Translations under genes and position numbers: made by a program
Shown: in pieces, positions 12,010-38,623 of the stretch
Layout: every line of letters begins with the position of its first letter
Position numbering within the stretch: position 1 is the first letter of the stretch
Source of the DNA: Phycisphaeraceae bacterium
GTDB lineage: Bacteria; Planctomycetota; Phycisphaerae; Phycisphaerales; Phycisphaeraceae
DNA: 64,000 nucleotides
Assembly (NCBI GenBank): GCA_020831765.1
Contig: JAFIFY010000059.1
Span: 62,001 to 126,000, forward strand
Direction of reading: 5' to 3'
The notes under the pieces: model-generated
Told to the model about the DNA's origin: nothing
The model's database searches: none
Seen by the model: the letters and a program-made list of their open reading frames with translations, nothing else

Positions 12010-12299
12010 CCCCTGGCTCCCATGCTCGGCCGACCCGGAAGCGAACAAGAACCGGCTGGTTATCGTCACCGCGACACAGATGACTAGGTAATCTTGTTCC
12101 AAATGGCCTATCGTCAGGAAACACGGATCGCATAATGGTTGCTTCCCGCCGAATGCCGATTGGACCATTCCGGATTGTGCTTGAAGCCCGAATACGTCCG
12201 ATTATCGTTAGGAATGACAGAGTTATCGGTCGCCGTTGAGGCCCGGTCCGGCCCGGATGACCCCGCAAGAATAAGTCCGTACCAGGGAATCCCACACCG

Positions 12300-13832
12300 T
12301 TGATCACGCTTGACCACCTGCTCAGGAAGCTGGATGCCCGGCCGCACGGCCGCGCGGGTGACGCCGGCGCGAAGGTGAGCACCATCTGCGATGACTCTCG
12401 GCAAGTCACGCCCGGATGCGCCTTTATCGCACGGCAGGGGGTCGGCGAATCGGGTCAGCATTACATCGGCCACGCCATCGAGCGGGGCGCGGCGATCATC
12501 CTGGCATCACGGCCGCCTTCGACCGATGAAGCTTCCGGCATCAACTGGATCGAGGTTCCGGGCCTGGACACCTCCAGGACCGCACTGATCGCTTCACGCT
12601 TTTTCGATCATCCCGGCGACAAGCTCCACATCATCGGAATCACCGGCACCAACGGAAAGACCACCACGGCCTGGCTGGCGCGGCAGATACTCGAGAGGTC
12701 CGGCGTTCGCTGCGGTCTCATGGGAACGGTGGCCAACGATCTGGGCGATGGTCCGGTCGCCGCGGCTTTGACCACGCCCGGCCCCATCGAGCTTCATCGC
12801 ATGCTGGCGCAAATGGTGGAGCGCGGCTGCCGCGCGGCGGCGTGCGAGTTCTCCAGCCATGGTCTGAGTCAGGGGCGTGTGGATCATCTTGCGATCGACA
12901 GCGCCGTCTTCACCAATCTGACCGGCGATCATCTGGACTATCACGGGGATATGGCATCGTATGCCCGGGCCAAGGCGCGGCTGTTCGATGGGTTATCCCG
13001 CCAGGCTCTGGCGGTGGTCAACGCGGATGATCCGGCCTCGGAAACGATGCTCGAGCGTTGCCAGGCACGCATCCTCCGGACGAGCGTTCGTGGCGACGGG
13101 CGGGCCCAGTTGCGGGCCAGCGAGATCCGCATGCGGCTGGATGGGTTTGATGCCCGGTTCATTGGCCCCTGGGGCAGCCGTCCCATCCGCGCGAAGCTGG
13201 TCGGCGAGCATAACGTGAGCAATCTGCTCCAGGCCCTGGGAGCGGTCGGCGCGATCGTCGATCTGACCGAATCGCTCCAGGCCGTGATTGATGAGCTGGC
13301 TTCGGCTCCCGGACGGCTTGAACCCGTGACGCCCCCGGCCGATGCCCCGGGGATCGACTCCGCCCGCCTGCCGACGGTCCTGGTGGATTACGCCCACACG
13401 GATGATGCGTTGGCCAACGTGCTGACGACGCTGCGGGGGGTCAAGCGCAAGGAAAGCCGGCTGTGGGTGGTCTTCGGCTGCGGGGGTGATCGCGATCGCA
13501 CCAAGCGGCCTCGCATGGCCAAGGTCGCCTGGCGTCTGGCCGATCAGGTGGTTGTGACCAGCGACAACCCGCGCACCGAGCCGCCCGAACAGATCATCGA
13601 GGAAATACTGGCTGGATTGCCCGCCCAGGGCGACTCGGGCCGCCTTATGGTCGAGCCGGATCGAGCCGTGGCGATCGAGCAGGCCGTGGCCGGGGCGACG
13701 GCGGGTGATCTGGTGCTGATCGCCGGTAAGGGCCACGAATGTGAGCAGATCATCGGCCGGGAACGTATCGTGTTCGATGATCGCATCCATGCCGCTGATG
13801 CCCTGAAGCGAAGGATCAACACGGTCGGCTGA
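12300..13832 (+). CDS. murE: UDP-MurNAc-L-Ala-D-Glu:meso-diaminopimelate ligase
   Basis: MurE adds the third amino acid to the peptidoglycan stem peptide in the cytoplasm, using ATP. The 510-residue product has the N-terminal UDP-binding segment (TICDDSRQVTPGCAFIARQG), the ATP loop GITGTNGKTTTAW near residue 115, the FTNLTGDHLDYHG motif and a C-terminal ligase domain with VDYAHTDDAL and TSDNPRTEPP. The DNPR motif is the one linked to meso-diaminopimelate rather than lysine selection. The start is a TTG with AGGGAA about ten bases upstream; no ATG precedes the conserved N-terminus. It heads a mur cluster with murF and mraY, separated from murF by 116 bp that hold a purine-rich repeat. Confidence 0.96.
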   Translation: MITLDHLLRKLDARPHGRAGDAGAKVSTICDDSRQVTPGCAFIARQGVGESGQHYIGHAIERGAAIILASRPPSTDEASGINWIEVPGLDTSRTALIASRFFDHPGDKLHIIGITGTNGKTTTAWLARQILERSGVRCGLMGTVANDLGDGPVAAALTTPGPIELHRMLAQMVERGCRAAACEFSSHGLSQGRVDHLAIDSAVFTNLTGDHLDYHGDMASYARAKARLFDGLSRQALAVVNADDPASETMLERCQARILRTSVRGDGRAQLRASEIRMRLDGFDARFIGPWGSRPIRAKLVGEHNVSNLLQALGAVGAIVDLTESLQAVIDELASAPGRLEPVTPPADAPGIDSARLPTVLVDYAHTDDALANVLTTLRGVKRKESRLWVVFGCGGDRDRTKRPRMAKVAWRLADQVVVTSDNPRTEPPEQIIEEILAGLPAQGDSGRLMVEPDRAVAIEQAVAGATAGDLVLIAGKGHECEQIIGRERIVFDDRIHAADALKRRINTVG

Positions 13833-13844
13833 CGCCGGAGTTGG

Positions 13845-13865
13845 TAGAAAGTAGAGAGTAGAGAG
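13845..13865 (+). repeat. Purine-rich interspersed repeat, copy 1
   Basis: A 21-bp stretch beginning TAGAAAGTAGAGAG is identical to 33705-33725. Here it continues as a GTAGAGA-type microsatellite and GGAGAGGAGAGAGGAGAG tract to about 13890, between murE and murF. It is followed by a pyrimidine-rich stretch. Confidence 0.85.
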
Positions 13866-13948
13866 TAGAGAGTGGAGAGGAGAGAGGAGAGCGTCGATCG
13901 GTCCTTTCTTCTCTCTGCCTTCTCGCACCCTTTTTTGGACCGGACTCA

Positions 13949-15508
13949 ATGCCACAGGTCTGGACGCCTGATGAACTGCGATCAATCACCGGCGGTCGGT
14001 GGTTGCGCCCGTTGCGTGGGCAATCCATCCAGCCGCGCGGCTGGAGGATCGATTCCAGAACCATTGAACCGGGTGATGTTTTTCTGGCATTCCCCGGCCG
14101 GAACGTCGATGGTCACAATTTTCTCGATGATGCGGCCAGGCGAGGTGCCGGTCTGGCGATCGTCGAGCGGCCGGTTGCCCCGGCTTCCGATCCGGCCAAT
14201 GGCATGGGCGTATTGCATGTCGATTCGACCCAGGACGCCCTGACGGCCATCGCCGGCCAATGGCGCACGCGCCTGGACCCGCGGCCGATCCGCATCATCG
14301 CGGTGACCGGTTCCAACGGGAAGACCACTCAACGCAACCTGATCGATGGCGTGCTGGCTTCGGCAAAGTCCGGACGCCAGGCCCAGGGCAGCTTCAACAA
14401 TCATCTGGGTGTCCCATTGACCCTGCTTCTGGCGCAGCCTGAGGATGATTATCTGGTGGTCGAGCTGGGCATGAATCATCCCGGTGAGATCGCCGCGCTG
14501 GCCGGGTGGGTTCGCCCGCACATCGGAGTCATCACAAGCATCGGTTCAGCGCATCTGGGCCTGATGGGAAGCCTCGATGCGATCGCAAGGGAGAAGAGTT
14601 CGTTGCTCGACCATCTGGCCCCGCACCCGGAAACCGGCCACGCCCTGGCTCTGCTTCCGCGTTCCCAGCGACGCCCGTGGGTCGGCCGAACGTATCCTCA
14701 ATGGCTGGTGACCGAGACCACTCCACAGCCCTTCAACTTCCAATCCACCGCCGAGGGTACTTCGGTGGTGATTGATGAAGCGCCGTTTGAAGCCGCCCTG
14801 CACGGCGACTTCATCGCCGATTATATCTGGAACGCATGGCGCATCGGGCGGGAACTGGGGCTGGAGACCGCGAAGATCGCCGAGGCCGTCCGGGCGATCC
14901 GGCCGATGGCGATGCGGATGGAAATCCGCCGGATTCCCTGGAAAAACGGCCATGTCGAGATGATCCTGGATTGCTACAACGCCAGCCCGGACTCGATGCG
15001 CAAGGCCCTGGCATTGCTGGCGACGCGTGGCGACCATGATCTTGAGCCGGGCGGGGGTGACGGTGCTGATCGCCGTGTCACGGGCCGCCGCATCGCGGTG
15101 CTGGGTGACATGCTCGAGCTCGAGGCATTCAGCGAGCGTGAGCATATTGAGCTGGGGCGACTCGCGGCCGAGGCAAAGCTGGATATCCTTATAACAGTTG
15201 GTCAAGCTTCACGAGCGACCGGACATCACGCCGCGGCCTGCGCCCGGAAGCTGGGAAGGCGTCTGGCGGCCGAGCATCATCGGACGCTCGATGAGCACGT
15301 GCCTGGCGGGATACTGGATCGATTGAGTGCCGGCGATCGCATCCTGATCAAGGGTTCTCGCGGCATGAAGCTTGAGCGGCTGGCCACGGCGATGGAAGCC
15401 CGGTCGGCCGCGCTTGGGCGAACTGAAGCCGACCAACCCAAGAGCGGGACACGGTCGTCCCCGCGCGGCCACATGGATGTGGAAGGCGAATCGTGCTTTA
15501 CGTCCTGA
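13949..15508 (+). CDS. murF: UDP-MurNAc-tripeptide:D-Ala-D-Ala ligase
   Basis: MurF adds the D-Ala-D-Ala dipeptide to UDP-MurNAc-tripeptide, the last cytoplasmic precursor step. The 519-residue product has the N-terminal RIDSRTIEPGDVFLAFPG segment, the ATP loop VTGSNGKTTQRN near residue 125, NNHLGVPLTLL, the VVELGMNHPGEI motif, and the C-terminal DCYNASPDSMRKAL and VLGDMLELEAFS motifs. All are standard for the family. The last 35 residues after the ligase core are unrelated and disordered-looking. The ATG at 13949 is the only start before the conserved region. Its 3' end overlaps the mraY start by 16 bases, implying translational coupling. Confidence 0.96.
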   Translation: MPQVWTPDELRSITGGRWLRPLRGQSIQPRGWRIDSRTIEPGDVFLAFPGRNVDGHNFLDDAARRGAGLAIVERPVAPASDPANGMGVLHVDSTQDALTAIAGQWRTRLDPRPIRIIAVTGSNGKTTQRNLIDGVLASAKSGRQAQGSFNNHLGVPLTLLLAQPEDDYLVVELGMNHPGEIAALAGWVRPHIGVITSIGSAHLGLMGSLDAIAREKSSLLDHLAPHPETGHALALLPRSQRRPWVGRTYPQWLVTETTPQPFNFQSTAEGTSVVIDEAPFEAALHGDFIADYIWNAWRIGRELGLETAKIAEAVRAIRPMAMRMEIRRIPWKNGHVEMILDCYNASPDSMRKALALLATRGDHDLEPGGGDGADRRVTGRRIAVLGDMLELEAFSEREHIELGRLAAEAKLDILITVGQASRATGHHAAACARKLGRRLAAEHHRTLDEHVPGGILDRLSAGDRILIKGSRGMKLERLATAMEARSAALGRTEADQPKSGTRSSPRGHMDVEGESCFTS

Positions 15509-16764: not shown

Positions 16765-17076
16765 TCACACCAGAGCCACGGATAGCCGCCGGCCGATCGC
16801 ACGAGCCGCTTTATCCAGAGTCTGGAGGGTTACGTTCTCGTTGTGAGGGTCGATTAGCCGTTCGAGTGCGGAGCGCGATGTCCGCATGCGCCGGGCCATC
16901 TCGGTCTTGCTCAGGCGCTCCTTCTCCATCGCCTGACGGATTTGATCGGCCAGCACGCGCTTGGTCGCGGCGAGTGTCGCCTCCTCGTAGAGCCCTTGTT
17001 CATCCAGGAACGAATCGAACGATGAGCCCAGGGGCGAAGCCCGTTTCTTTGTATTCGAGTTCGAAGCCATGGTCAT
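16765..17076 (-). CDS. XRE-family antitoxin
   Basis: A 103-residue protein with a helix-turn-helix in its C-terminal half (KERLSKTEMARRMRTSRSAL then ERLIDPHNENVTLQTLDKAA) is the typical DNA-binding antitoxin partner of Gp49/HigB-like toxins. ATG at 17076 is chosen because AGGAAAGG lies just upstream and because the ATG overlaps the toxin stop as ATGA. An ATG two codons later is also possible. The gene order toxin-then-antitoxin is the higBA arrangement. The protein presumably neutralises the toxin and represses the shared promoter upstream of 17435. Confidence 0.88.
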   Translation of the reverse strand: MTMASNSNTKKRASPLGSSFDSFLDEQGLYEEATLAATKRVLADQIRQAMEKERLSKTEMARRMRTSRSALERLIDPHNENVTLQTLDKAARAIGRRLSVALV

Positions 17077-17435
17077 TGCCTTTCCTGCTTCAGTGCATCG
17101 AAGATTTCCCGCATGCGTCGGCGCGCAAGCGCCAGATCCTGTGGCGGCGTTCTGGGTTGCTTCTTGATGAAACCGTGCAGCAACCACATCGAATCATCGG
17201 CAATGCAAAACAGCACACGGGCGATGCGTTGGTCAAGCGCGCTGCGAACCTCCCAGAGCCCATCGCCCATGGGTCGGCACACCGGCAGCCCAACCGGCCA
17301 TCCAAACTCGACCGTCTTGATGTCTGTGCCGATCGCCAGACGATCCCGGCGTGAGAGCGAAAGCAGCCATTCACGGACCGGCTCCTTTCCGCTTGGCTGC
17401 CGGTAGAACCGCACGGTGATCCGCTTTTCGCTCAT
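17073..17435 (-). CDS. HigB/RelE-like toxin of phage Gp49-like family
   Basis: This 120-residue protein matches the phage-derived Gp49-like (DUF891) toxin pattern: VRFYRQPSGKEPVREWLLSL, then MGDGLWEVRSAL, RIARVLFCIADD, WLLHGFIKKQPRTP and a basic helix LALARRRMREI. The family folds like RelE and, where tested, cleaves mRNA on the ribosome. The stop overlaps the antitoxin ATG by four bases, so the two are translationally coupled. The module lies between two copies of the mraY 3' end, which suggests acquisition by insertion. Confidence 0.9.
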   Translation of the reverse strand: MSEKRITVRFYRQPSGKEPVREWLLSLSRRDRLAIGTDIKTVEFGWPVGLPVCRPMGDGLWEVRSALDQRIARVLFCIADDSMWLLHGFIKKQPRTPPQDLALARRRMREIFDALKQERQ

Positions 17436-23468: not shown

Positions 23469-26400
23469 TCAACCTTCGCCGAGGCGTTCGACCACCGCGG
23501 CACCGAAGGTGAAGCCTCCGCCGAAGGCGCACAGCCCCAATCGCGAACCCTTCTTCTGCTTGTCCATCAGATCCCGCAGGCACAGGGGAATGCTGCTCGA
23601 TGAGGTGTTGCCATAGTGGCGCACCGCGTTGACCACACGTTCCTCGGGCACGCGGAGGCGGGTGCGGATGGCTTCGATGATGCGGCCGTTGGCCTGGTGG
23701 GGCACGAACAGGTCGATCTGGTTGACGCCGATATCCGCCCGGTCGCAGGCGCGTTCGAGCATGGTGAGCATCTGCCGCACCGCCTCGGCGAACACCTTGC
23801 GCCCGTCCATCTCGATGAAGCCGCAACCGGTGTTGGGTACTTTGAGGATATCGCCGTTCTCGCCCTTGGCCGAGAGCACCGGACGATGGAGCGTGGCCTT
23901 GGCCTTGCTCATGTGCTCGGGGCCGTAGAGCACGGTGGCGGTGGCGGCGTCGCCGAAGATGATGGCGGTGTCGAAGTCAGCGGGGTTGACCGCCCGCGAG
24001 AGCCCCTCGGCGGTGATGATCAGCACGCGGGCATCGGGCTGGGCCTGGATGAAGTCGTAGCCCGCGGCCAGGGCGTAGAGGTATCCGGTACACGCGGCCA
24101 GCACATCGTGAGCCGGGGCATCGAAGTCGCCCACATCCTTGCTCAGTTCATGCTGGATCAGGCAGGCCATGGAGGGCGTGACCATCAGCGGGGTGCTGGT
24201 GGCGCAGATGATGGCGCTGACCTGGTCGATGGGAAGCTTCTCGCCGACCAGCGCGGCCTTGGCGGCTTCGACCGAGATCGATAGGGTGGTCTGATGCGGC
24301 GCCATGCGCGGCCGGCTTTCGATGCCGGTGCGGCGCATGATGTCCTCGCACGTCCGCGCGGGGAAGCCCTTGACCAGTTGCTCGTTGGTCAGCGTCAGCG
24401 AGCCCATTGAGGCGTAGATCGAACTCATACCGACCAACACCTCGGTTCGCGATTCGGTGGTCGAGCGGACGACGGACTTGGTGACCGGCCGGCTGCGGCG
24501 TCGGGAGAGGATGGGCTCGCCCGGCTCCTCGCGGGTGATGGGCTTGCGGCGACGGGCGCCGTTGACGGGCTCGGAGCGAAGCCGAAGCAGGGGTGTGCCG
24601 ACCTTGACGTTGAGCCCTTCAGGCACGAGCAGTGTGTCGACGATACCGGCTTCGGGTGAAGTCAGCTCGACCACGGCCTTGTCGGCCTCAAGATCAGCCA
24701 GCGGTTGGCCGGCGGTGACCTCGTCGCCGACTTTCACACTCCAGTTGACGACCGTGACGGCCTGGTCGGCGGGGCTGGAGCCGATGGCTTCCACCAATGT
24801 GCAGCCATCTTCAACGCGCTCATCCACCTTCCAGACCAGGTCCAGATCGAGCATCTCCGCGGCGGCTTCGAGTGTTCGCTTGAAGGAAGGCAGCACTTCG
24901 AGCTGGTTGGGGAAATTGCAGGGGACATAGGTGTCCGGCCGCGTGATGCGCCGCACGGTGATCGGCCCTTCCACGGCCTCGCTGACGGTGGCGACCACTT
25001 CCGCGCCAAAGCCGCAGGTCATGTTGTCTTCATGCAGGACGATGAGCTTGCGGGTCTTGCGCACCGAAGCGATGACCGCTTCACGGTCCCAGGGCATGAT
25101 CGAACGAAGGTCGATCAATTCCACGCCGATCTTGAGCGGTTCCAGGGCTGCGACGACCTTGCGTGCGATGCCCATGGTGCTGCCCCAGGTCACCAGCGTG
25201 AGGTGATCGCCGCGCGTCATCAGGCGTGCGGTTCCGGGGATGGCCAGTTGCTGGCCGACATCGGCCGAGGTGGTGGCTTCGCGGTCGTTGAGGCAAACCT
25301 TGGGGTAGAAGAAGATCGTCGGGCGTTTGGACTCGAAAGCGGCGTTGAGCAGGCCCGCGGCGTCGCCGGCATTGCTGGGCATGAACACATCCACGCCCGG
25401 CACATGGGCACAGACCGATTCGAACGTATGGGCATGGAAGGGCCCCAGACCGGGGCGATAGGCGCCGCAGGCGACCATGATGATCACCGGGCACGTCCAG
25501 CCGCCGTCGGTGCGCCAATCCATGCTGCCCAACTCGCAGGCGATCTGGTTGAACGCCAGCGGGATGAAATCGGCGAATTGCAGGAACGCCACCGGCTGCT
25601 TGCCGGCCAGGGCGCGTCCGATGCTCACGCCGACGATGGTCGATTCGCTCAAGGCGTAATTGCGAACGCGGCCGGGGTATGCCTTGGTCAAGCCGCGCGT
25701 GACGCCGAACACATCGCCCTTGGGATCCTCAAGGTCTTCGCCAAAGAGCGTGATATCCGGATTCTCCGACATCCGGTGAAAGAGCACATCGCGAATGGCT
25801 TCGATCATGGTGACGCGCGGCGTCGAGCTGTCGCCGAGATATTCATTGGACCGGCGCGTCAGTCGTTCGGGATAGGGCTGGCCCGCTTCAAACGTCGGCG
25901 TCGGGTCGCCGGATTGCAGGCTGCGCTCACTGGCTTCATGCACATCCGAGCGGACCTTCTGCTCGATGATCCACAGGTCCTTCTCACTGAGCCCCATTTC
26001 CATCAGGTCCGACCGGAGTCGGGCGATCGGATCGCCCAGCTTCCGAACCCGCTCGATTTCTTCCTTGGTGCGATAGACCCGTTCATCGTCGGCGTTGGTG
26101 TGGTTGGCCAGGCGGTCCATCTTCATGACGACGATGGCCGGCCGGCGGTTCTGGCGCATGGATTCGGTGATGGCCATCAGGCGCGGAGCGCTCTGGCGCA
26201 CATCGCGGCCGTCCAGTCGATGGATTTTCAGGCCGTAGAACTCATCGGCCTCGCGGTCGGGAAGGTCATAGAAGGTCTTGCCGGGGGTCAGGGTCGAGAT
26301 CGAAAAGCCGTTGTCCTGAATGACAAACAGCACCGGCAGGCCGTCGCGGACGACTTCGCCGATGCCTTCGAGCACTTCGCCCTCCTGGCTGGACCCATCG

Positions 26401-26897
26401 CCCAGCGCGGTGACGACGATCGGCCGCGCCGGATCGTCCTTGACCGCCGCGGCCAGACCGGCGGCCTGCAAGGCATTGTTGCCCACCGGGCCGACGAGAC
26501 TGAGTACCCGTCGCGAGGGGTCGCTGAGGTGGGCGGACATCTGCCGGCCTTTGGAGTGACCGGCCTCGTTGCACAGAAGACTGTGGAAGAACATCTCCGG
26601 CGGGATGCCGCGCGCGATCATCAGCGCCTTATCGCGGTAGTGCGGATGCAGCCAGTCCTCGGGCCGCAGCGCTGGCATCAGCGCCACGCCACCCTCATGG
26701 CCGGCGCCGGAAACGTGGAAGAAAGCCTCGCCTCGCGTGACCAGCTCCGACTCGACCCGGTCGACTTCGCGAGCCGCGACCATGGCGCGATACAGGTCGA
26801 TCAGTTGGCTTCGTTCAAGGGTTGGGAGCCCACGTCCGTTGGTGCTGGCGGTCTCCACGGTCGTTGCTGACCGGCCGGCGTTGATCGATCTTGCCAT
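23469..26897 (-). CDS. Fused 2-oxoacid dehydrogenase E1-alpha/E1-beta/lipoyl/FabH-type synthase
   Basis: One 1142-residue polypeptide carries four enzyme modules. Residues 1-345 are E1-alpha, with thiamine-diphosphate motif GDGSSQEGE (166-174) ending at Asn196 in QDNGFS. Residues 360-690 are E1-beta (LFGEDLEDPKGDVFGVT; Glu387, His488/His490). Residues 700-778 are a lipoyl domain with Lys740 in DLEADKAVVE. After a basic linker (779-820), residues 821-1142 are a beta-ketoacyl-ACP synthase III with the complete triad Cys936 (LAACTGYL), His1067 (PHQANGRI) and Asn1097 (HYGNTSSSS). E1 decarboxylates 2-oxoacids and acylates lipoate; FabH condenses an acyl starter with malonyl-ACP. No E2 acyltransferase core is present. 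ATG 26897 has GAGG nine bases upstream; an in-frame ATG at 26957 lacks one. Domains are firm; the combined role is inference. Confidence 0.93.
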   Translation of the reverse strand: MARSINAGRSATTVETASTNGRGLPTLERSQLIDLYRAMVAAREVDRVESELVTRGEAFFHVSGAGHEGGVALMPALRPEDWLHPHYRDKALMIARGIPPEMFFHSLLCNEAGHSKGRQMSAHLSDPSRRVLSLVGPVGNNALQAAGLAAAVKDDPARPIVVTALGDGSSQEGEVLEGIGEVVRDGLPVLFVIQDNGFSISTLTPGKTFYDLPDREADEFYGLKIHRLDGRDVRQSAPRLMAITESMRQNRRPAIVVMKMDRLANHTNADDERVYRTKEEIERVRKLGDPIARLRSDLMEMGLSEKDLWIIEQKVRSDVHEASERSLQSGDPTPTFEAGQPYPERLTRRSNEYLGDSSTPRVTMIEAIRDVLFHRMSENPDITLFGEDLEDPKGDVFGVTRGLTKAYPGRVRNYALSESTIVGVSIGRALAGKQPVAFLQFADFIPLAFNQIACELGSMDWRTDGGWTCPVIIMVACGAYRPGLGPFHAHTFESVCAHVPGVDVFMPSNAGDAAGLLNAAFESKRPTIFFYPKVCLNDREATTSADVGQQLAIPGTARLMTRGDHLTLVTWGSTMGIARKVVAALEPLKIGVELIDLRSIMPWDREAVIASVRKTRKLIVLHEDNMTCGFGAEVVATVSEAVEGPITVRRITRPDTYVPCNFPNQLEVLPSFKRTLEAAAEMLDLDLVWKVDERVEDGCTLVEAIGSSPADQAVTVVNWSVKVGDEVTAGQPLADLEADKAVVELTSPEAGIVDTLLVPEGLNVKVGTPLLRLRSEPVNGARRRKPITREEPGEPILSRRRSRPVTKSVVRSTTESRTEVLVGMSSIYASMGSLTLTNEQLVKGFPARTCEDIMRRTGIESRPRMAPHQTTLSISVEAAKAALVGEKLPIDQVSAIICATSTPLMVTPSMACLIQHELSKDVGDFDAPAHDVLAACTGYLYALAAGYDFIQAQPDARVLIITAEGLSRAVNPADFDTAIIFGDAATATVLYGPEHMSKAKATLHRPVLSAKGENGDILKVPNTGCGFIEMDGRKVFAEAVRQMLTMLERACDRADIGVNQIDLFVPHQANGRIIEAIRTRLRVPEERVVNAVRHYGNTSSSSIPLCLRDLMDKQKKGSRLGLCAFGGGFTFGAAVVERLGEG

Positions 26898-27330
26898 CGG
26901 GCTGAACCTCGATTGGGAATTCTGTGTGGTTGGCGACGGGTGACCCAGACGCGACATACGGGCGTGGTGCCCGGGGTAGCCGATCCGGGGACGGGCGGCA
27001 AAGCCACTGCGGATCGAGGGTTGGATTGTACCTGCCGACGGTGGGCCACTTCAAGTTAAACCGGGCACTTTATGTTCCGACCGCTCGAAATTTCGCCCAT
27101 CAGCGCGATCAGGGGATTCAGGTAAGTGCCCGATGAATTGGGGAGTTGCGCGCCCTTGGGCGCTTTTGCGGCGGGCTTGCGGCGCTCAAAAGCCTTTATT
27201 CGACCGGGTGATCGGCGCGTTGCGGGTTTGAATCCGCCCCTGAACCCCCGTAAATTGGTCCATCCGACGTTCGGCCGCGCGCCGGCTGCACCCCCGATCT
27301 GAAACCCATGGTCCTCGACCGCCCCCGGGC
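26898..27330. other. Divergent intergenic region without recognised gene
   Basis: These 433 bp separate the divergent E1-FabH fusion and aminotransferase genes and should hold both promoters, but I see no clear -35/-10 pair. A GC hairpin (GCGCCC-TT-GGGCGC followed by TTTT) sits at 27150-27167. No convincing open frame or RNA gene was found. Confidence 0.5.
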
Positions 27331-28536
27331 ATGGAGATTCCCTTGACCGCCACCAAGACCGAGCTTATTCAACGACTGCTGACCCCTGGCCCGACCGCCG
27401 TGCCCGCGGCGGTGCTGCGGGAGATGGCGCTGCCGATCATCCACCACCGCACCAAGGCATTTGAAGCCGTCTTCGCCGAGGTGGGCCAGCGGCTGGCACG
27501 GGTGATGAAGACCGCCGGCCCTGTGCTGTCGATCGCCGGAAGTGGTACCACGGCCTTCGAGGCCGCGCAGGTCTCGCTGGCCAGGCCCGGGTCCAAGGTC
27601 ATGGCCGTGGCCGGCGGCAAGTTCGGCGAAAGGTGGCAGGACATCTTCGACCAGTACGCGCCGGCGTTGAACCTCAAGCCGGTGAAGCTGGATGTGCCCT
27701 GGGGCGAGGCGGTCAGCCCCGAAGCGCTGGAAGCCTTCCTCGGTGAACACGGCGATGTGGACCTGATCGCCCTGGTGCATTCCGAGACATCCACGGCCAC
27801 CGCCTGCGACCTGAAGGCCATCGTCGAGGTGGTTCGCCGCAAGGCACCCGAGGCGCTGTTGATCGTCGATGGCATCACCTCCGTCGGGGCGATGCCGGTG
27901 GATATGGATGGCTGGGGCATCGATGTGCTGGTCACCGGCTCGCAGAAGGCGTTGATGCTGCCGCCGGGACTGGGCTTTGTCGGGCTGGGGCCGCGGGCGC
28001 TGGATCGGCTCAAGCAATTTAAGGCCGGGCCGTCCTACAACCTCGACCTTCGCCGATGGCTCAAGAGCCACGCTCAGAACACCGTACCCTTCACCCCGCC
28101 GGTGAGCCTGATCCGCGGCCAGCGCGTGGCCCTGGAGATGATCGAAAGCGAAGGGCTCGAGCAGGTCTGGGCGCGAACCCGGATGCTGGCCGATGCCTCG
28201 CGCGCGGCAATGGATGCGCTGGGCCTGACGCTGTGCAGCAAGTCGCCCAGCGATTCGGTGACCGGCATCTTCTATCCCCAGGGCGCCGATGACAAGAAGT
28301 TCCGCAATCGCATGCGGGATGAGTTTGGCATTCACCTGGCCGGCGGTCAGGATGGCCGGGGCGCATCCTGGTCGGGGAAGATATTCCGAATCAGCCACAT
28401 GGGTTTTGTCACGATCGAGGACACCGTGGCCGCGATCGAGGCCGCCGAAACGGTGCTGCGAGAGATGTGTCCGGACCTGCCGGGCAAGCCGGGCGATGCG
28501 GTGGCGGCGGCTCGGGCCATCCTTGATCGAGCGTGA
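27331..28536 (+). CDS. Class V PLP aminotransferase (alanine-glyoxylate/serine-pyruvate type)
   Basis: A 401-residue fold-type I aminotransferase of the AGXT/SgaA group, which moves amino groups between alanine or serine and glyoxylate or pyruvate. Motifs are LLTPGPTAVPAAVLREMA at the N-terminus, PIIHHRTKAF, the cofactor-binding AGSGTTAFEAA, LVHSETSTA, LIVDGITSVGAMPVDMD and the Schiff-base lysine in VTGSQKALMLPPG. ATG 27331 is used, but TTG 27343 has a better ribosome-binding site (GGAG six bases upstream) and would remove four residues. It is first in a tightly packed operon whose next gene begins on its stop codon (TGATG). Confidence 0.9.
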   Translation: MEIPLTATKTELIQRLLTPGPTAVPAAVLREMALPIIHHRTKAFEAVFAEVGQRLARVMKTAGPVLSIAGSGTTAFEAAQVSLARPGSKVMAVAGGKFGERWQDIFDQYAPALNLKPVKLDVPWGEAVSPEALEAFLGEHGDVDLIALVHSETSTATACDLKAIVEVVRRKAPEALLIVDGITSVGAMPVDMDGWGIDVLVTGSQKALMLPPGLGFVGLGPRALDRLKQFKAGPSYNLDLRRWLKSHAQNTVPFTPPVSLIRGQRVALEMIESEGLEQVWARTRMLADASRAAMDALGLTLCSKSPSDSVTGIFYPQGADDKKFRNRMRDEFGIHLAGGQDGRGASWSGKIFRISHMGFVTIEDTVAAIEAAETVLREMCPDLPGKPGDAVAAARAILDRA

Positions 28537-29996
28537 TGGAGAACGCGGGGCATCGAATGCCGTGTTCGGCCGGCGTGGCTGGTCGCTCCCGGGCGCATGG
28601 TCCGGGCGATCGTGATTCGGCGGAACCCCGAAGCCGGGTGGAATGGTCGGCGGTCATGCAACTCGACGAGCTTCGCGACAATCCGCGCATCAACCTGCTG
28701 GTCAACACGCTGGTCGATCTGAGCCGGACGCGGACGCCCGAGGAAGTGCTCTACATCTTCACCGAAGCGATCGCCGAGCTTGAGACTCCGCGAGGCTATG
28801 TCAGTGTCAGCACACGCAAGCTGGCCCACGGTCAGTACAAGATCACCCGCCGGCGACGCCACGAAGAGTCGCTCGATCCACGGATGAACCCATGGGACCG
28901 TTGGCACGAATTGCCCGTTTGCCAGGGCGGTGTGATCGGGCGGATCATCGCCACGGGCCGCCCGGTGGTCATCGATCACCTGAGCCTCGACGAAGACCCG
29001 GCGCTGGGCGATTTCGCCGCCGGGTATCGCTCGCTTTTGGCGCTGCCGCTTTACGACGATGGCGAGCCGATCAACTGGGCGCTTTTCTTTTTCCTGACCG
29101 ACCGCGTGGAGGATTCGGAGGATGTCGAGCAGTCGCTCCTGCGGGCGAACCTGGTGGGTTCGACGATCAAACAGCGGGTCCTGGTCCAGGAGCTTGCTCG
29201 GGCCAACGAGCGTATTCGTGGTGAGATGGAACGCATCGCGATGATTCAGCGGGCGCTGCTGCCGTCGCGTCTTCCTGACATTCCCGGACTGTCGATGGCC
29301 GCCAGCTACGAGACGTTCGATGAGGCGGGCGGCGATCTGTACGACCTTTTGCCTCTGGCGAGGATCGGCGGCGACCCGGATGATCCGCGCTGGCTGATCG
29401 TGATCGGCGATGTCTCCGGCCACGGCCCATCGGCGGCCGTGATGATGGCGATGCTGCAAACGCTGATCCATGCCTATCCAGGCAAGCCCGAATCGCCGGC
29501 CGCGCTGCTTGAATATGCCAACGGCCAGTTGCTGCGCAAGAATGTCGAGCAGAGTTTCGTGACGGTGTTCGCCGCGTTCTACGATCCGGGCACGCGGCAC
29601 ATGGTGTACGCCCGCGCGGGCCACAATCCGCCGCTGTTGCTGCACATGGCGCGGGGCGAGCTTGAGCGGCTCGAGGCCGTCGGCGGCCTGCCGCTGGGCA
29701 TCATCGATGAACCGCGATTGACCGACGCCCAGCGGGTGCTCGAGCCCGGTCACACGCTGGTGCTCTATACCGACGGCATCACCGAGGCCCGCGATCCGGA
29801 AGGCCGATGGTTCGGCATCGAGGGCATCGAAGCATCACTGCATGACTGTTCCGGCGAGCCGGATTGCGCGATCAGGCACATCCGCGACAGCCTCCGCCGA
29901 TTTGAACAGAGTGTGCGTCCCAAGGATGATCAAACCCTTCTGGCGATTCGCATCCAGGAAAAGCCGGAAACGACCCAAGAGGAGCAAGTCGCATGA
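28536..29996 (+). CDS. GAF domain plus SpoIIE-type PP2C serine phosphatase
   Basis: A 486-residue signalling protein. Residues about 45-210 are a GAF-like sensor domain (GYVSVSTRKLA, GGVIGRIIATGRPVVIDHLS, RSLLALPLYDDG). A linking coiled coil (VLVQELARANERIRGEMERI) leads to a SpoIIE/RsbU-type phosphatase (residues about 230-475) with metal-binding motifs YETFDEAGGDLYDL, VIGDVSGHGPSAA, RAGHNPPLLL and LVLYTDGITEAR. Such enzymes dephosphorylate anti-anti-sigma factors in partner-switching stress pathways. Its ATG overlaps the upstream stop, and its own stop overlaps the GH94 ATG (ATGA), tying it to carbohydrate genes. An in-frame ATG at 28656 is an alternative start closer to the conserved region. 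Confidence 0.9.
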   Translation: MENAGHRMPCSAGVAGRSRAHGPGDRDSAEPRSRVEWSAVMQLDELRDNPRINLLVNTLVDLSRTRTPEEVLYIFTEAIAELETPRGYVSVSTRKLAHGQYKITRRRRHEESLDPRMNPWDRWHELPVCQGGVIGRIIATGRPVVIDHLSLDEDPALGDFAAGYRSLLALPLYDDGEPINWALFFFLTDRVEDSEDVEQSLLRANLVGSTIKQRVLVQELARANERIRGEMERIAMIQRALLPSRLPDIPGLSMAASYETFDEAGGDLYDLLPLARIGGDPDDPRWLIVIGDVSGHGPSAAVMMAMLQTLIHAYPGKPESPAALLEYANGQLLRKNVEQSFVTVFAAFYDPGTRHMVYARAGHNPPLLLHMARGELERLEAVGGLPLGIIDEPRLTDAQRVLEPGHTLVLYTDGITEARDPEGRWFGIEGIEASLHDCSGEPDCAIRHIRDSLRRFEQSVRPKDDQTLLAIRIQEKPETTQEEQVA

Positions 29997-32410
29997 GCCA
30001 TGGCCGGTTTTCGCCTGATGGTCTTGAATATCACATCACCGACCCCCACACGCCGCGCCCCTGGCATCAGTACCTGGTCAATGATGAATACCTGGCCAAC
30101 ATCACCCAGCACGGCACGGGCGCCAGTCACTGGCAGCCGCTGGGCGAAGGGCTTCGCACCAATCTGACCGAGGACCGGGATGGCGGCGGCGGGCCGCGAC
30201 TGGTCTATCTCAAGGACATGCAAAGCGGTGAGTTCTGGGGCGTCGGCGGCGCTCCGGATTTCGGCCCGCGCGATCGTTGGCTGTGCCGGGTGGGCCTGGG
30301 ATACCAGACCATCGAATCGCGGCGGGACGGGCTTGACGCGGTCTGGACGACCTGTGTGCCCCAGTCGCGTGACGGCGAATCGGACAGTTGCGAGCTGTGG
30401 ACCATTCAGATCACGAATCATGATTCGCGGCCACGCAGAGTCGCACTGTTTCCCTATGTCGAGATGCACCTGACCGGCGGCAGCACCCTGATGGACTTCA
30501 TCGCCGTGCTCGGCGGCCGCTTCGATTCCGAGGCCAATGCGATCTTCGGCATCAACAGTTGCGTCAAGTTCCCACCGAAGTTCAAGGCCGTGTTCGCATC
30601 CGACCGGCCGACTTCCGGCGTGACGGTCAGCCGCGATGAGTTTCTCGGCCACTATCGCGGTTACGAGCGCCCGCTGGCGGTGGAGAAGGGCGATGTGCAT
30701 AACCCCGAAGCGGGCACCGAGTGGTTGGGGGCTTCCTTCCGGCATGAGTGGACGCTTGCGCCGGGGCAGACCGAGACGGCCAACCTGCTGCTGGGCGTGA
30801 TCGACAGCGAGGATGATGGCCGGCGACTGGTGAAGAAATACCTGGCCAGGGGAGAACCGGCACGCGTGCTCGAGGCCATCCGGGAGGACACGGCCCGACG
30901 TGTGGACCGCTTGAAGGTTCAGACGCCCGATGAGCAGTTCAACCGATGGATGAATATCTGGCTCAAGCACCAGTTGCATTTCGTGGCCCGCTGGGGGCGC
31001 GTGATCGGCCGGGGCTATCGCGACGTCCTCCAGGACACCTTCGCCCATCGCCTGATCGATCCGGACCGCGCCAGGCAGTGCCTGACCGAGGTCTTCAGCA
31101 AGCAGTTTCCCTCCGGCCGTTGCATTCGTGCATGGCGTCTGCCCAATGCCCAGCTCGATCTCCAGCACTACGCCGACAGCCCGAGTTGGATGATCATGGC
31201 CCTATCGATGTATCTCAAGGAGACCGCCGACTGGCCGCTGCTGGATGAGCTGGTTCCCTTCCTCAACGAAGAAGATCCTTACGCGGCTTCAACGGCCGAG
31301 GCTTCGGTGTTCGATCATGTGGTGCTGGCCCAGCGTTATCTCCTGGGCGATCGCGGCCTTCATGGCCTGAGCCATATTCACTATGGCGACTGGTGCGACA
31401 CGATGAATGGCGTGGGCCGGCGCGGCAAGGGCGTGAGTGTGATGCTCTCCATGCAGGTCAAGTGGGGCTGCGACCAGTTGGCCGAGCTTGCCGCTTATCT
31501 GGCTGGGAAGGGCATCCTGCCCGCGGGCTGGAGCGCGGCCCAGCTCGAAGGACTTGCCCGCGAGATGCAGGACGCCTCACGGGAGCTTGCCCAGGCCATC
31601 AACACCCATGCGTGGGATGGCGATTGGTACATCCGCGCGTTTGATGATGATGGCGTGGCGGTGGGTTCGGCCAACGGCCCGGCTTCCGATGGGGGCGAGC
31701 TTCGCATCTTTCTCAATAGCCAGAACTGGGCGCTGATCGCCGACATCGCGCCGCCCGACCGTGCCGAAAAGGCGCTGGCCGCCGTGAGCCAGCACCTGGA
31801 TACCGGCTATGGCATGGTGCTCAGCTATCCGCAGTCCACGTTCCTGAAGCCGCGCATCGGTCAGATGTCGGCCATGACGCCGGGCTTCTATGAAAACGGC
31901 TCGGTCTACACCCACGGCAATTGCTTCTACATCGCCGCGCTGGCCATGGCCGGCCGGGGTGATGAGGCGTGGGAAGCTTTCAAGACCGTCCTGCCCGACA
32001 CACCCAACAAGCCCAACACCGACACCGAGCCCTATGTCATCCCCAACATGTACATCGGCCCGGTCGTCGAGCGACGGATGCAGCGGAATCTGTACCTTTC
32101 CGGCTGGCGAACCGGGTCCGCGGCGTGGCTTTACCTGACCGGAGTTGAATGGATTCTCGGTCTCCGCGCTGAATATGACGGCTTGCGGATCGATCCGAAG
32201 CTTCCCGGAACATGGGACAAGGTCAAGGTTCAACGACCGTTCCGCGGTTCGGTTTATGATGTGACCATCCGGCGTGACGATTCGGTCGCGCCGGGCACGA
32301 TGCGGATACTGCTCGACGGTCGGCCCGTGGAAGGAGTACTGCCGCCGCCGGAGGTCGGAACAACGTACGCGGTCGAGGTCAGCATCCCCGCCAGGAATCA
32401 AGAACATTGA
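29993..32410 (+). CDS. GH94 family glycoside phosphorylase (cellobiose/chitobiose phosphorylase-like)
   Basis: An 805-residue family 94 enzyme. These cytoplasmic enzymes split beta-linked disaccharides with phosphate to give a sugar-1-phosphate. The N-terminal beta-sandwich starts FSPDGLEYHITDPHTPRPW. The alpha/alpha barrel carries NIWLKHQ, RGYRDVLQDT, HYGDWCDTMN (the general-acid site, usually DWND) and SAMTPGFYENGSVYTHGNC, with the phosphate-binding GRTGS equivalent in SGWRTGSAAWLYLT. The C-terminal strands follow YDGLRIDPKLP. Substrate could be cellobiose, chitobiose or a related sugar. No leader peptide is visible. It overlaps both neighbours, so it belongs to the aminotransferase-phosphatase-isomerase operon. 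Confidence 0.93.
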   Translation: MSHGRFSPDGLEYHITDPHTPRPWHQYLVNDEYLANITQHGTGASHWQPLGEGLRTNLTEDRDGGGGPRLVYLKDMQSGEFWGVGGAPDFGPRDRWLCRVGLGYQTIESRRDGLDAVWTTCVPQSRDGESDSCELWTIQITNHDSRPRRVALFPYVEMHLTGGSTLMDFIAVLGGRFDSEANAIFGINSCVKFPPKFKAVFASDRPTSGVTVSRDEFLGHYRGYERPLAVEKGDVHNPEAGTEWLGASFRHEWTLAPGQTETANLLLGVIDSEDDGRRLVKKYLARGEPARVLEAIREDTARRVDRLKVQTPDEQFNRWMNIWLKHQLHFVARWGRVIGRGYRDVLQDTFAHRLIDPDRARQCLTEVFSKQFPSGRCIRAWRLPNAQLDLQHYADSPSWMIMALSMYLKETADWPLLDELVPFLNEEDPYAASTAEASVFDHVVLAQRYLLGDRGLHGLSHIHYGDWCDTMNGVGRRGKGVSVMLSMQVKWGCDQLAELAAYLAGKGILPAGWSAAQLEGLAREMQDASRELAQAINTHAWDGDWYIRAFDDDGVAVGSANGPASDGGELRIFLNSQNWALIADIAPPDRAEKALAAVSQHLDTGYGMVLSYPQSTFLKPRIGQMSAMTPGFYENGSVYTHGNCFYIAALAMAGRGDEAWEAFKTVLPDTPNKPNTDTEPYVIPNMYIGPVVERRMQRNLYLSGWRTGSAAWLYLTGVEWILGLRAEYDGLRIDPKLPGTWDKVKVQRPFRGSVYDVTIRRDDSVAPGTMRILLDGRPVEGVLPPPEVGTTYAVEVSIPARNQEH

Positions 32411-33483
32411 ATGACGCGTTGAAATCTACGACTGACTCCCTCCCGGCGGCCGAAACCGATGACCGGAGCCCGGACCATGTCTTTGCCCGGCTGGTTCTGG
32501 AAGCGGAGTCCCGGGCGATCGGCGTGGCCATCCGGGAGCTTGGGCCGGGTTTCGATGCGGTGGTCGAGCGGCTCGTGGCCCTCAAGGGCGCTGTCATTGT
32601 CAGTGGTTCGGGCAAGAGCGGGCTGGTGGGCCGGAAGATCAGCGCCACGCTGGCCTCGACGGGTACACCCAGTCACTTTCTTCATCCCTCCGATGCCATG
32701 CACGGTGATCTTGGCCGCATCCAGCCGACCGATGCGTTGCTGCTGCTCAGTTTCGGCGGCGAGACCGAGGACACGCTCGCCCTGGCGGCGCTGGTTCGAC
32801 AGGATGGCCTGCCGGTGATCAGCATGACCGGAAAGCCCGAGAGCCATCTGGCGCGGATCAGCGATTTTCACCTTTGCATCGGGCGGGTGACCGAGGTGGA
32901 TACCCATACGCTCGCCCCGACGGCATCCACCACGGTGATGATGGCGATGGGCGATGCCCTGGCGCTGGCGCTTGCGCGGCGGCGCAGCTTCACACCCGCG
33001 GACTTCCACAAGCGTCATCCCGGCGGTCAGCTCGGACGCATGATGATGCCCGTGTCCAACGTGCTGCGCTTCAAGGTTGGCCAGAACCTGCCGCTGGTGG
33101 CCGATGAGCTGAGCGTCGGGCAGGTACTCAAGCGCGCGGCCGAACAGGGCGGCATCGGCGAAGGCTCAGCGCGGCCGCGCCCCGTCGGCGCTGTGCTATT
33201 GATCGATACCGATGGGCGGCTCTCAGGCATCTTCACCGATGCCGACCTGCGGCGCCGGCTGGTCGAACTCGGCCCGGCCGTGCTCGATCAGCCCATCGCG
33301 CAAGTGATGACCCGACAACCCCGAACCCTGTCCAACGATGCCACCGTACGGGATGCCGTGCAACTGGTGCGCGAAACGCGCCTCGATGAACTTCCCGTCG
33401 TCGATGCCCAGGGCAAACCCGTCGGCCTGATCGATGTTCAAGACCTCGTGGCCCTGAAGGTCATCGAAGCCACGAGCAAGTAA
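32407..33483 (+). CDS. kdsD: D-arabinose 5-phosphate isomerase (SIS plus two CBS domains)
   Basis: KdsD interconverts ribulose-5-phosphate and arabinose-5-phosphate, the first step towards Kdo for lipopolysaccharide. The 358-residue protein has an SIS domain (VIVSGSGKSGLVGRKISATL, HPSDAMHGDLGRI, LLLSFGGETEDTLAL, the FHKRHPGGQLG signature), then two CBS domains (about 215-350; GIFTDADLRRRL, LDELPVVDAQGKPVGLIDVQDL). The start is TTG at 32407, overlapping the GH94 stop, with AGGAA about ten bases upstream; no usable ATG exists before the SIS domain. It is the last gene of the operon. GutQ-type paralogues are similar, but the KdsD role is most likely if Kdo is made. Confidence 0.92.
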   Translation: MNDALKSTTDSLPAAETDDRSPDHVFARLVLEAESRAIGVAIRELGPGFDAVVERLVALKGAVIVSGSGKSGLVGRKISATLASTGTPSHFLHPSDAMHGDLGRIQPTDALLLLSFGGETEDTLALAALVRQDGLPVISMTGKPESHLARISDFHLCIGRVTEVDTHTLAPTASTTVMMAMGDALALALARRRSFTPADFHKRHPGGQLGRMMMPVSNVLRFKVGQNLPLVADELSVGQVLKRAAEQGGIGEGSARPRPVGAVLLIDTDGRLSGIFTDADLRRRLVELGPAVLDQPIAQVMTRQPRTLSNDATVRDAVQLVRETRLDELPVVDAQGKPVGLIDVQDLVALKVIEATSK

Positions 33484-36006: not shown

Positions 36007-36319
36007 GAGGATGTACCTGCAAGGAGAACCAAAAGTGTGGAACGCGATCGGTACGACAACTTCCGATGCGATATCATCACCGAGGATAACACAGCCGCGC
36101 TCAGGGGGGATGTTTCGTGACTTGCCCGGTGCCCGGGGACATGCGGCGAACGGTGATCATGTCCGACGTCCCGAAAACCGCCACAACAGTGGAAAGAGTG
36201 TCCTCATTTGCGAAAAATGCATAAACCGTTGTCCATAAGCGTATTGTTGAAGGGCAGCGCCGATTTGTCGACCCGTAAGTTTGGCCATGCCGCCGGCACG
36301 CTTGATTGAGGAGACGGTC

Positions 36320-38623
36320 TTGAAGCTTTTCCTGTCCGTGTTGTTTCTGATGGCGGCATTGGCCGTTCCGACCTGGGGCGATTCGCTGATCAAACCGTTG
36401 ATGCCCGATCCGGTGGCCAACGATGAAGCCGCGCTGCTGGCGGCGGCCCGGGCGGTGGAGCCGGAAATTCTGGAGGGGGGTTATCGCCAGTTTGATCTGG
36501 TGGCGGCAAGGGTCGGCACGTGGGACGGGCCGGTCGATCTGATGGTCCGTCTTATTCTCCCGCCGGGCGAGCACGCGCGGCCGCTGCCGCTGGTGGCTTA
36601 CGTTCATGGCGGGGGATTCATCGGCGGCTCGTACAGGCTGAACATCAACGACCCGCGAAGAAGCTTCAGCCCGGGCTTTCGTGCGTTGAGCGATGAGGGC
36701 TTTGCGATCGTATCGCTGGGTTACCGTCTTGCTCGTGAGGCGGGCTGGCCGGCACCGGTGAGTGATCCACTTTGCGGTCTGCGTTTTCTGGTGCGCCACG
36801 GCGAGCATTGGGGCGTGGATGCATCGCGTGTGGGTGTGATCGGACACAGTGCCGGGGCGCGGGCGGCGGCGCTGCTGGCCATGACGCCGCAGGACGATTT
36901 CCACGAGCAGGAGATGCCGTGGCGGGGGGCGAAGGTGAGCTTCGCCGCGGCCTGGCTCTGGGCGGGTTCAGCTCTGACAGCGCCCGACCTCGCTTCGTGG
37001 GAGGAGTTCGGCAAGCCGCGTAATTACAGTGTGCCCCGGCTTCACTTCGGTGACCATCCGGCTTGGGACGATGAGACGCGGCATCGACTGCGCATCCGCA
37101 ACAATCTCCCGCACCTGTCCAATGCCATGCCGCCGATCTACATGCTTCGCGGACGATCCGACTATGGCGGCGATCATTCCGATGCGCGGCGGGCCGAGCG
37201 TATCTGGAAAGCACTGGGCATCGAAGCCACCGTGAGCATCGTGCCTGGGGGACACAGCGCCGCCGGTCCGGTCGAGCCGCTGGTGGCGTTCTTCAAACGA
37301 CACTTGACCGGTGAGCCGCCCAAGCGCCCGGAACATGATCCGATCGCCACCGCCGAAGCGCTGCTGAGCGTGGATGAACCGATGGCCGCGCTCGAGACGC
37401 TCGCCGCGTATCACACCACCAACAGCGGCCAGCGGCCACCCGCCGGACAATGGCTCTTTCTCAGTGATGGCAACATGATGTGGCTGGCCGAGACCGATGA
37501 TTGGCCTGAATCGCACCGGGCTGTCGCGGATCGGGCCGCGAAGCAACTGGCCATGATCGAGGCCGAACACGCCCGGCGATTGCTTTCGACCCGCAATTGG
37601 TTCGGGGCACAGGAAGCGGCGGCGAACGTCATGGCGCTGGACGGCCGTAACCAGGCGATGATCGAACTGGCCGAGACCGCCCAGACATCGGCCAAGCGCG
37701 AAGCTGAAGTGTTCAGCGCGCTCAGCAAAGCGAATGCACGCCTGCACGCGGGCGAGCGCGAGGCGGCGATGGAGTTGCTCGAAGGTGAACAGGATGCCCG
37801 GCTTCAAGCCGCACTGGCGCGCCTGCGCGGCGATTCGTCCCCGGAAAAGCCGGCCTGGGCGGATGAAGCGGGGATCGATGTCCATGGCCCCTGGGCGCGG
37901 GTACGGCTCGGTGAAGGCATCGCCATCAGGTTTCGCTGGATCGAGCCCGGTTCATGGGAGTTGCCCGAGCACATGCGGTATCGCAACAGGGCGGATCAGC
38001 CGTGGGTCCAACAGGTGTCGGTCGAGCACGGCTTCTGGCTCGCTCAGACCCCGACCACGGTGGCCCAATGGCATGCGGTCTCCGGCGAACCTTTGGACCC
38101 CGATGCGCCCGGCGATGCGGCCTTGAGCGGTCGGGATTACCTGGCGATCGTGGACTGGCTGGAAAAGCTGGCCGGCCGCCATCCGGACCTGCTGGCGCGC
38201 CTGCCGACCGAAGATCAATGGCTGCACGCCGCGACACTGGGCGGACGCGATGATGTCATCGCCGCCGTGAACCTGCATGCGGTCCATGCCCTCAATGTCG
38301 ATCGCCAGAGCCCCGAACACCAGCCCGTCGGCGGCATGCTTCCGACGCTCGGCGGGTTGTATGACATGCTCGGCGGCGTTCAGGAGTGGACGGCATCGCC
38401 CGGCCGCCACAGTGCGCGGTTCCAGGATGAACGCGGCCGATTCCGGGTGCTGGCCTATCCGATCGCGCGCGGCGGCGCATGGTCGAGCATGCCCCATCAA
38501 CTGGGATGGGATGTCCGCGCTCAACACCGCCACGGTAATCGACAGCCCGATCTGGGGTTCAGAATCGCCATCGGAATTCGAGCCGAAGGTGAAGACTGGC
38601 TCAGACACGTCGAGCGGCCGTGA
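36320..38623 (+). CDS. Secreted alpha/beta-hydrolase (esterase) fused to SUMF1-like domain
   Basis: The TTG at 36320 is chosen because GAGGAG lies seven bases upstream and it opens a perfect leader (MKLFLSVLFLMAALAVPTWG). An upstream in-frame ATG at 36287 would bury the leader. The first 320 residues are an alpha/beta hydrolase: oxyanion VHGGGFIGGS, nucleophile VIGHSAGARA, Asp in RSDYGGDH and His in PGGHSAAG, as in feruloyl or carboxyl esterases. A helical linker (about 330-540) leads to a formylglycine-generating-enzyme-like fold (about 545-750) with LARLPTEDQWLHAA, LGGVQEWTAS, RGGAWSS and LGFRIAIG. The catalytic cysteines of true FGEs are absent, so this domain probably binds something. The periplasmic or secreted substrate is unknown. 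Confidence 0.85.
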   Translation: MKLFLSVLFLMAALAVPTWGDSLIKPLMPDPVANDEAALLAAARAVEPEILEGGYRQFDLVAARVGTWDGPVDLMVRLILPPGEHARPLPLVAYVHGGGFIGGSYRLNINDPRRSFSPGFRALSDEGFAIVSLGYRLAREAGWPAPVSDPLCGLRFLVRHGEHWGVDASRVGVIGHSAGARAAALLAMTPQDDFHEQEMPWRGAKVSFAAAWLWAGSALTAPDLASWEEFGKPRNYSVPRLHFGDHPAWDDETRHRLRIRNNLPHLSNAMPPIYMLRGRSDYGGDHSDARRAERIWKALGIEATVSIVPGGHSAAGPVEPLVAFFKRHLTGEPPKRPEHDPIATAEALLSVDEPMAALETLAAYHTTNSGQRPPAGQWLFLSDGNMMWLAETDDWPESHRAVADRAAKQLAMIEAEHARRLLSTRNWFGAQEAAANVMALDGRNQAMIELAETAQTSAKREAEVFSALSKANARLHAGEREAAMELLEGEQDARLQAALARLRGDSSPEKPAWADEAGIDVHGPWARVRLGEGIAIRFRWIEPGSWELPEHMRYRNRADQPWVQQVSVEHGFWLAQTPTTVAQWHAVSGEPLDPDAPGDAALSGRDYLAIVDWLEKLAGRHPDLLARLPTEDQWLHAATLGGRDDVIAAVNLHAVHALNVDRQSPEHQPVGGMLPTLGGLYDMLGGVQEWTASPGRHSARFQDERGRFRVLAYPIARGGAWSSMPHQLGWDVRAQHRHGNRQPDLGFRIAIGIRAEGEDWLRHVERP

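Follow-up and report, generated by a model that had tools for sequence, protein, structure and literature searches.

Fused 2-oxoacid dehydrogenase E1, lipoyl and ketoacyl synthase III modules in one bacterial protein family: a candidate fatty-acid priming enzyme that may bypass E2 and coenzyme A

The priming of branched-chain fatty acids, in Bacillus for example, begins with a branched-chain 2-oxoacid dehydrogenase complex (BCKDH), which makes acyl-coenzyme A (acyl-CoA), the starter that is then taken up by FabH, a beta-ketoacyl-acyl carrier protein (ACP) synthase III (KAS III). A 64,000-nucleotide stretch of a Phycisphaeraceae genome (assembly GCA_020831765.1, contig JAFIFY010000059.1, positions 62,001 to 126,000), referred to here as the window, contains a single open reading frame (ORF) in which the E1 parts of a 2-oxoacid dehydrogenase, a lipoyl domain and a KAS III follow one another in one polypeptide. 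The question raised by this locus is how an acyl group would travel from the first of these modules to the last. The most far-reaching reading, to which we give about an even chance, is that the protein represents a widespread and so far undescribed family in which KAS III replaces the E2 acyltransferase, and that a compact homodimer of ~250 kDa would convert a 2-oxoacid and malonyl-ACP to 3-oxoacyl-ACP with neither a CoA thioester nor an E2 core.

The ORF at 23469-26957 is a single uninterrupted frame of 1162 amino acids (aa; 126.5 kDa) when read from the ATG at 26957. An alternative ATG at 26897, which gives 1142 aa, is probably the true start, because a GAGG lies ~10 nt upstream of it and the family is conserved only from about residue 45 onward. 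Residue numbers given here are those of the long form, so that Lys740, Cys936, His1067 and Asn1097 of the 26897 start become Lys760, Cys956, His1087 and Asn1117. The features of the frame, in which all Pfam matches exceed the curated cut-off, are as follows:

23469-26957, minus strand: fused ORF, 1162 aa; probable start at ATG 26897
25896-26792, minus strand: E1-alpha (E1_dh, PF00676, residues 56-354), with invariant Tyr107, Arg108, Asn216 and His286
26310-26402, minus strand: GDG...N motif for binding of thiamine diphosphate (ThDP), residues 186-216, recognized in the sequence
24897-25814, minus strand: E1-beta (residues 382-687: Transket_pyr, PF02779, 382-553, and Transketolase_C, PF02780, 575-687), with invariant Glu438 and His508
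24579-24758, minus strand: lipoyl domain (Biotin_lipoyl, PF00364, residues 734-793)
24678-24680, minus strand: candidate lipoyl-lysine Lys760, in an EADK motif that the model places at a beta-turn, invariant in 33/33
24408-24572, minus strand: linker between the lipoyl and KAS III domains, largely of low confidence in the model
23487-24407, minus strand: FabH-type KAS III domain (residues 851-1157)
24090-24092, minus strand: KAS III catalytic Cys956
23697-23699, minus strand: KAS III catalytic His1087
23607-23609, minus strand: KAS III catalytic Asn1117

The last of these domains is matched by ACP_syn_III and ACP_syn_III_C, to residue 1157, and, above cut-off, by the NCBIfam model PRK09352 (beta-ketoacyl-ACP synthase 3). 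The initial annotation had proposed one frame with intact E1-alpha, E1-beta, lipoyl and KAS III signatures and no E2 catalytic core, and both proposals hold: the frame and the Pfam and NCBIfam matches bear out the first, and the Pfam scan of the fused protein finds neither 2-oxoacid_dh (PF00198, the E2 core) nor an E3-binding domain. The six Pfam domains are identical in all 33 family members that were scanned, and PF00198 is not among the families listed for them. In the family alignment Lys760, the KAS III triad of Cys956, His1087 and Asn1117, and the E1 residues Asn216, His286, Glu438 and His508 are invariant; the residues diagnostic of an E1, namely the GDG...N motif, Arg108, His286, Glu438 and His508, are conserved. 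An AlphaFold2 model built from the 33 family members has well-folded modules (mean predicted local distance difference test score 86, predicted template-modelling score 0.67), with the N-terminus and the linker ahead of KAS III as its lowest-confidence regions and with Lys760 at the beta-turn of the lipoyl domain. FabH tops the Foldseek matches of this model, among which 2-oxoacid dehydrogenase E1 structures also rank high.

Could such a frame have arisen by the wrongful joining of separate genes, during assembly or annotation? We consider the probability of this to be negligible. The same domain order recurs in Planctomycetota, Verrucomicrobiota and Gammaproteobacteria, the fused protein being common to ~50 sampled genomes of these three phyla, and the relatives, from dozens of independent genomes, align over their full length at 43-54% identity. 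Within the window's own family a strong match occurs in 12 of 51 genomes, counting the window and one copy truncated at a contig end; the Verrucomicrobiota sample has full-length copies in 35/388 genomes (and pieces on separate contigs in 2 further genomes); and 3 of 369 gammaproteobacterial genomes carry the fusion, including Fangia hongkongensis and one genome in which it is truncated at a contig end. When species genomes were scanned, full-length relatives came to light in Phycisphaerae, in a metagenome-assembled genome of Verrucomicrobiota, in an uncultured bacterium that was later placed among the Verrucomicrobiota sample, and in the isolate Fangia hongkongensis DSM 21703. Frameshift or misassembly, which the initial annotation had named as possible refutations, is ruled out, as is chance, by this full-length conservation, which extends to an isolate and to near-complete contigs. 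The sole support for an artefact that was found is a fourth gammaproteobacterium among the 369 (L107), which has the E1-lipoyl part only; its sequence is nested within the fusion clade and hence resembles a loss. The sporadic spread of the fusion over three phyla suggests that its function is useful and transferable.

The history of the fusion bears on the place that KAS III holds in it. When the E1 parts are compared in a tree, the KAS III fusions fall into a single clade (100/100), whose sister group consists of single-chain E1-lipoyl-E2 proteins (97/95). On this sister relationship we read KAS III as occupying the place of the E2 acyltransferase on the E1-lipoyl scaffold. A tree of KAS domains likewise puts 18 fused KAS III domains in one clade (100/99), separate from 29 stand-alone KAS III proteins, with the root of the split less sure owing to a very long branch (L068). 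The simplest reading is that one event put KAS III at the E2 position, and both trees are consistent with a single origin of the fusion; the E1 tree gives no order for the two C-terminal modules, KAS III and the E2 core. The trees place the window protein, with weak support, among verrucomicrobial and gammaproteobacterial members and apart from the rest of its own family, a pattern suggestive of horizontal transfer.

The sister architecture is itself of some interest. Family f53, of the same phylum as the window, encodes proteins that resemble the fusion in domain order and in length but have the E2 core PF00198 as their C-terminal module; four of them (L049, L050, L052 and L053, all planctomycetes) hold E1-alpha, E1-beta, lipoyl domain and E2 core in one chain of ~1110-1175 aa, an unusual arrangement. 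The truncated relative in L107 (G716 C1 2132000-2151000, at 8626-14174), nested beside Fangia in the E1 tree, is a stand-alone E1-lipoyl protein of 781 aa with 56-57% identity to the Fangia fusion, and is followed downstream by SET-domain-like, WelO5-like, MetX-like and ATP-grasp genes. This locus looks like a small biosynthetic cluster, in which a lipoyl-bound acyl group may reach another acceptor.

What has become of the KAS III domain itself can be judged from a residue comparison, in Escherichia coli FabH numbering, of 35 fused domains with 29 stand-alone ones (28 from carrier or related genomes plus E. coli FabH), and the contrast described here holds for that set. C112 and H244 are kept in all domains of both kinds, N274 in 35/35 fused and 28/29 stand-alone domains, and the ACP-docking R249 in 35/35 and 27/29. 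Thr28, Trp32 and Arg151 of FabH grip the adenine of acyl-CoA (PMC4606726), and it is this clamp that the fused domains have lost: T28, W32 and R151 are each kept in 0/35 of them, as against 27/29, 28/29 and 28/29 stand-alone domains, with Asp, Glu or Ala at position 32 and Phe, Gln, Ala, Pro, Tyr or Thr at position 151. Since the triad and R249 are retained throughout, the fused KAS III appears capable of condensation and of contact with ACP but not of binding CoA in the usual manner. The window genome and the three other carriers that were checked (L040, L062, L064, L065) each encode, besides the fusion, a canonical FabH in which W32 and R151 are present, and the fusion would therefore be an additional priming route in organisms that have the ordinary one.

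Taken together, these features lead us to lean, with somewhat better than even confidence, toward a starter-unit synthase contained in a single polypeptide. The E1 part would decarboxylate a 2-oxoacid on ThDP and reductively acylate the lipoyl group of Lys760; flexible linkers would let the lipoyl domain carry this acyl thioester into the active site of KAS III; the acyl group would move from acyl-dihydrolipoyl straight to Cys956, with no part played by E2 or CoA; and KAS III would condense it with malonyl-ACP to a 3-oxoacyl-ACP that enters the ordinary type II fatty-acid synthesis (FAS II), while a cellular E3 reoxidizes the dihydrolipoyl group. We infer each of the lipoyl-to-cysteine transfer, the malonyl-ACP acceptor and the branched or medium-sized acyl group from the sequences. 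The lipoyl arm would be the most economical source of acyl groups for KAS III because only a short linker separates its domain from KAS III and there is no E2 core, and direct transfer is favoured because KAS III sits at the E2 position and the CoA-adenine clamp is lost in 35/35. The initial annotation's idea of a lipoyl arm that delivers to the FabH cysteine, bypassing E2 and CoA, gains from the same two observations; the substrate is the part of it that sequence leaves unfixed. Since a fused alpha-beta E1 is expected to dimerize, as KAS III does, it is reasonable to picture a symmetric dimer that lacks a large E2 core. That an E3 would still be needed, as the annotation also held, fits a genome that encodes two lipoamide dehydrogenases (TIGR01350, above cut-off), available in trans, and LipA, all of them elsewhere than beside the fused gene.

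Several observations weigh against direct transfer and have to be set beside it. The pantetheine contacts of KAS III are mostly kept in the fused domains (R36 in 32/35, N247 in 34/35), so that use of CoA is disfavoured and still conceivable, and loss of the clamp would fit an acyl-ACP donor as well. None of the genes beside the fusion encodes a dedicated E3, ACP or lipoate ligase, and the E3 that had been envisaged as co-occurring is encoded elsewhere in the genome; a protein that lacks an E3-binding domain must, moreover, be served by E3 through diffusion. The window genome also holds other 2-oxoacid dehydrogenase E1 and E2 genes, and an E2 could thus act in trans. From these points one can construct a CoA-dependent channel, in which a foreign E2 core makes acyl-CoA for the tethered KAS III and the fusion merely co-localizes known steps, a chemistry that in its separate form is already in textbooks. 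We regard this as improbable: the adenine-binding residues are missing from every fused domain, KAS III takes the place that E2 has in the sister proteins, and the genomes of Fangia and G392 (Verrucomicrobiota) have no strong match to this type of E1 other than the fusion, their remaining matches being weak.

The loss of the clamp also admits a third kind of donor, since KAS III might take acyl-ACP or some other non-CoA substrate, with the lipoyl-bound acyl group being, or joining, a second one, as in a two-acyl condensation resembling those of OleA and PpyS, or in a ketosynthase for a special product. To this we assign a low probability. Carriers own a canonical FabH and the fused KAS III need not, therefore, serve housekeeping synthesis, and in some Phycisphaeraceae a divergent FabF-like ketosynthase is encoded nearby; the nearest KAS family is nevertheless ordinary FabH (PRK09352, above cut-off), and the neighbours at most loci form no pathway cluster. 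OleA and PpyS employ an inter-subunit Glu (PMC4578411), whereas position 87, presumed to be equivalent, is Thr or Ser in the fused domains.

This same position bears on which acid is used. Residue 87 of FabH governs acyl-chain size (PMC3734052), and it is Thr or Ser in 35/35 fused domains and in 1/29 stand-alone ones. In comparisons with the sequences of the Protein Data Bank (PDB), the E1-alpha part scores higher against the Thermus and human branched-chain E1 than against pyruvate dehydrogenase (PDH) E1. Because of these two features the acyl group seems to be branched or medium-sized, and a branched-chain 2-oxoacid is a plausible substrate. The same mechanism could instead operate on pyruvate or 2-oxobutyrate, yielding acetoacetyl- or 3-oxovaleryl-ACP without acetyl-CoA, a variant that we think rather unlikely, with a probability that overlaps the one given to our best explanation. 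Sequence cannot fix the specificity of an E1, and the best NCBIfam model for E1-alpha is PDH_E1_alph_x, below its cut-off; against a straight-chain primer stand the ranking of branched-chain E1-alpha over PDH E1-alpha in the PDB matches and a Thr/Ser that points to an acyl pocket larger than that of E. coli FabH.

The surroundings of the gene offer little that is constant. In the window it is alone on its strand, flanked by genes for a class-V aminotransferase and a hydroxyacid dehydrogenase, and no constant partner gene was found across 22 Verrucomicrobiota loci, where the neighbours identified are all unrelated (a PtsP-like protein and an ammonium transporter, both named by reading, a glutamate synthase and a helicase). 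On these grounds a dedicated biosynthetic cluster was rejected, and we prefer to read the fusion as a self-contained single gene that feeds general fatty-acid synthesis. A motif scan found no ACP-like ORF near the fused gene, and the gene close to the Fangia fusion that had been considered as a dedicated E3 turned out to encode a soluble transhydrogenase. The divergent FabF-like ketosynthase, with its Cys-His-His intact, lies one or two genes from the fusion in five Phycisphaeraceae-type loci, in some of which a gene for an indolepyruvate-oxidoreductase-like protein (~1190 aa) stands between the two; in the window genome its orthologue is on another contig (L202 2497-3906):

L035 3017-4423 and 4372-7944; L036, L048, L112, L113: divergent ketosynthase loci, in some with the indolepyruvate-oxidoreductase-like protein beside

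Elsewhere in the window, four plus-strand genes with 4-base start/stop overlaps (27331-33483), for a class-V aminotransferase, a GAF-SpoIIE phosphatase, a GH94 phosphorylase and an SIS-CBS protein, are predicted to form a tight operon of mixed content. A 780-aa protein encoded at 36281-38623 (plus strand) combines an N-terminal alpha/beta hydrolase (BD-FAE) with a C-terminal FGE-sulfatase domain, and at 16765-17435 (minus strand) a Gp49-like (RelE/HigB-type) toxin gene is overlapped by a helix-turn-helix antitoxin-like gene.

If direct transfer from the lipoyl arm to the ketosynthase is true, fatty-acid priming in these bacteria would be uncoupled from CoA and driven, within one protein, by a 2-oxoacid decarboxylation that produces reduced nicotinamide adenine dinucleotide (NADH), and an E2 acyltransferase would be exchangeable for an enzyme that forms carbon-carbon bonds. 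The question of the CoA bypass would then be approachable with one purified protein, and the fusion could serve as a compact building block for the production of branched or unusual acyl starters.

How, finally, does this arrangement compare with known systems? No published description of an E1-lipoyl-KAS III architecture was found in a targeted search of the open-access literature, and the well-described family of this kind that might have overturned the initial annotation thus did not appear there. The BCKDH and FabH of Bacillus share E1 chemistry, a lipoyl domain and the KAS III type with the fusion, but in that system E1, E2, E3 and FabH are individual proteins and CoA is an intermediate carrier of the acyl group, whereas the fusion is one chain that lacks an E2 core and the CoA-adenine clamp. 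The single-chain E1-lipoyl-E2 proteins of f53 share the fusion's order of domains as far as the lipoyl domain, after which they have PF00198 instead of KAS III. In systems such as QncN/QncL and SclQ1-4, E1-type and lipoyl domains supply a glycolyl unit to the carrier protein of a nonribosomal peptide synthetase (NRPS) (PMC6335953). These systems keep an E2-type acyltransferase, use a ketose-phosphate donor and, unlike the fusion, have no KAS III in the place of E2. In this type, to which NapB/NapD presumably also belong, acyl transfer reportedly runs from lipoyl to ACP. A plasmid-borne polyketide synthase (PKS)/NRPS locus of Streptomyces xanthii (L125, NZ_CP061282.1, 11929-26373) has a separate fused E1 beside the PKS/NRPS, and lipoyl and E2-like domains precede the first ketosynthase, so that its N-terminus appears to be a 2-oxoacid dehydrogenase loading region; E1 and lipoyl domains are wired there to a condensing assembly line, as in the fusion, but an E2-like core is kept and the PKS is modular, where the fusion has KAS III. 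The nearest precedent is BkdABC of Photorhabdus, a BCKDH-type system with an ACP (BkdB) that is reported to form a 5-methyl-3-oxohexanoyl thioester (PMC4578411, PMC4901931). It supplies isopropylstilbene, photopyrone and iso-fatty acids and ties a dehydrogenase to a condensation, as proposed for the fusion; it is set apart by its description as three proteins rather than one fused chain, and it could turn out to be a relative in split form, which would be the main threat to novelty. The components of the fusion are thus all known, and their wiring is new as far as the open-access literature shows.

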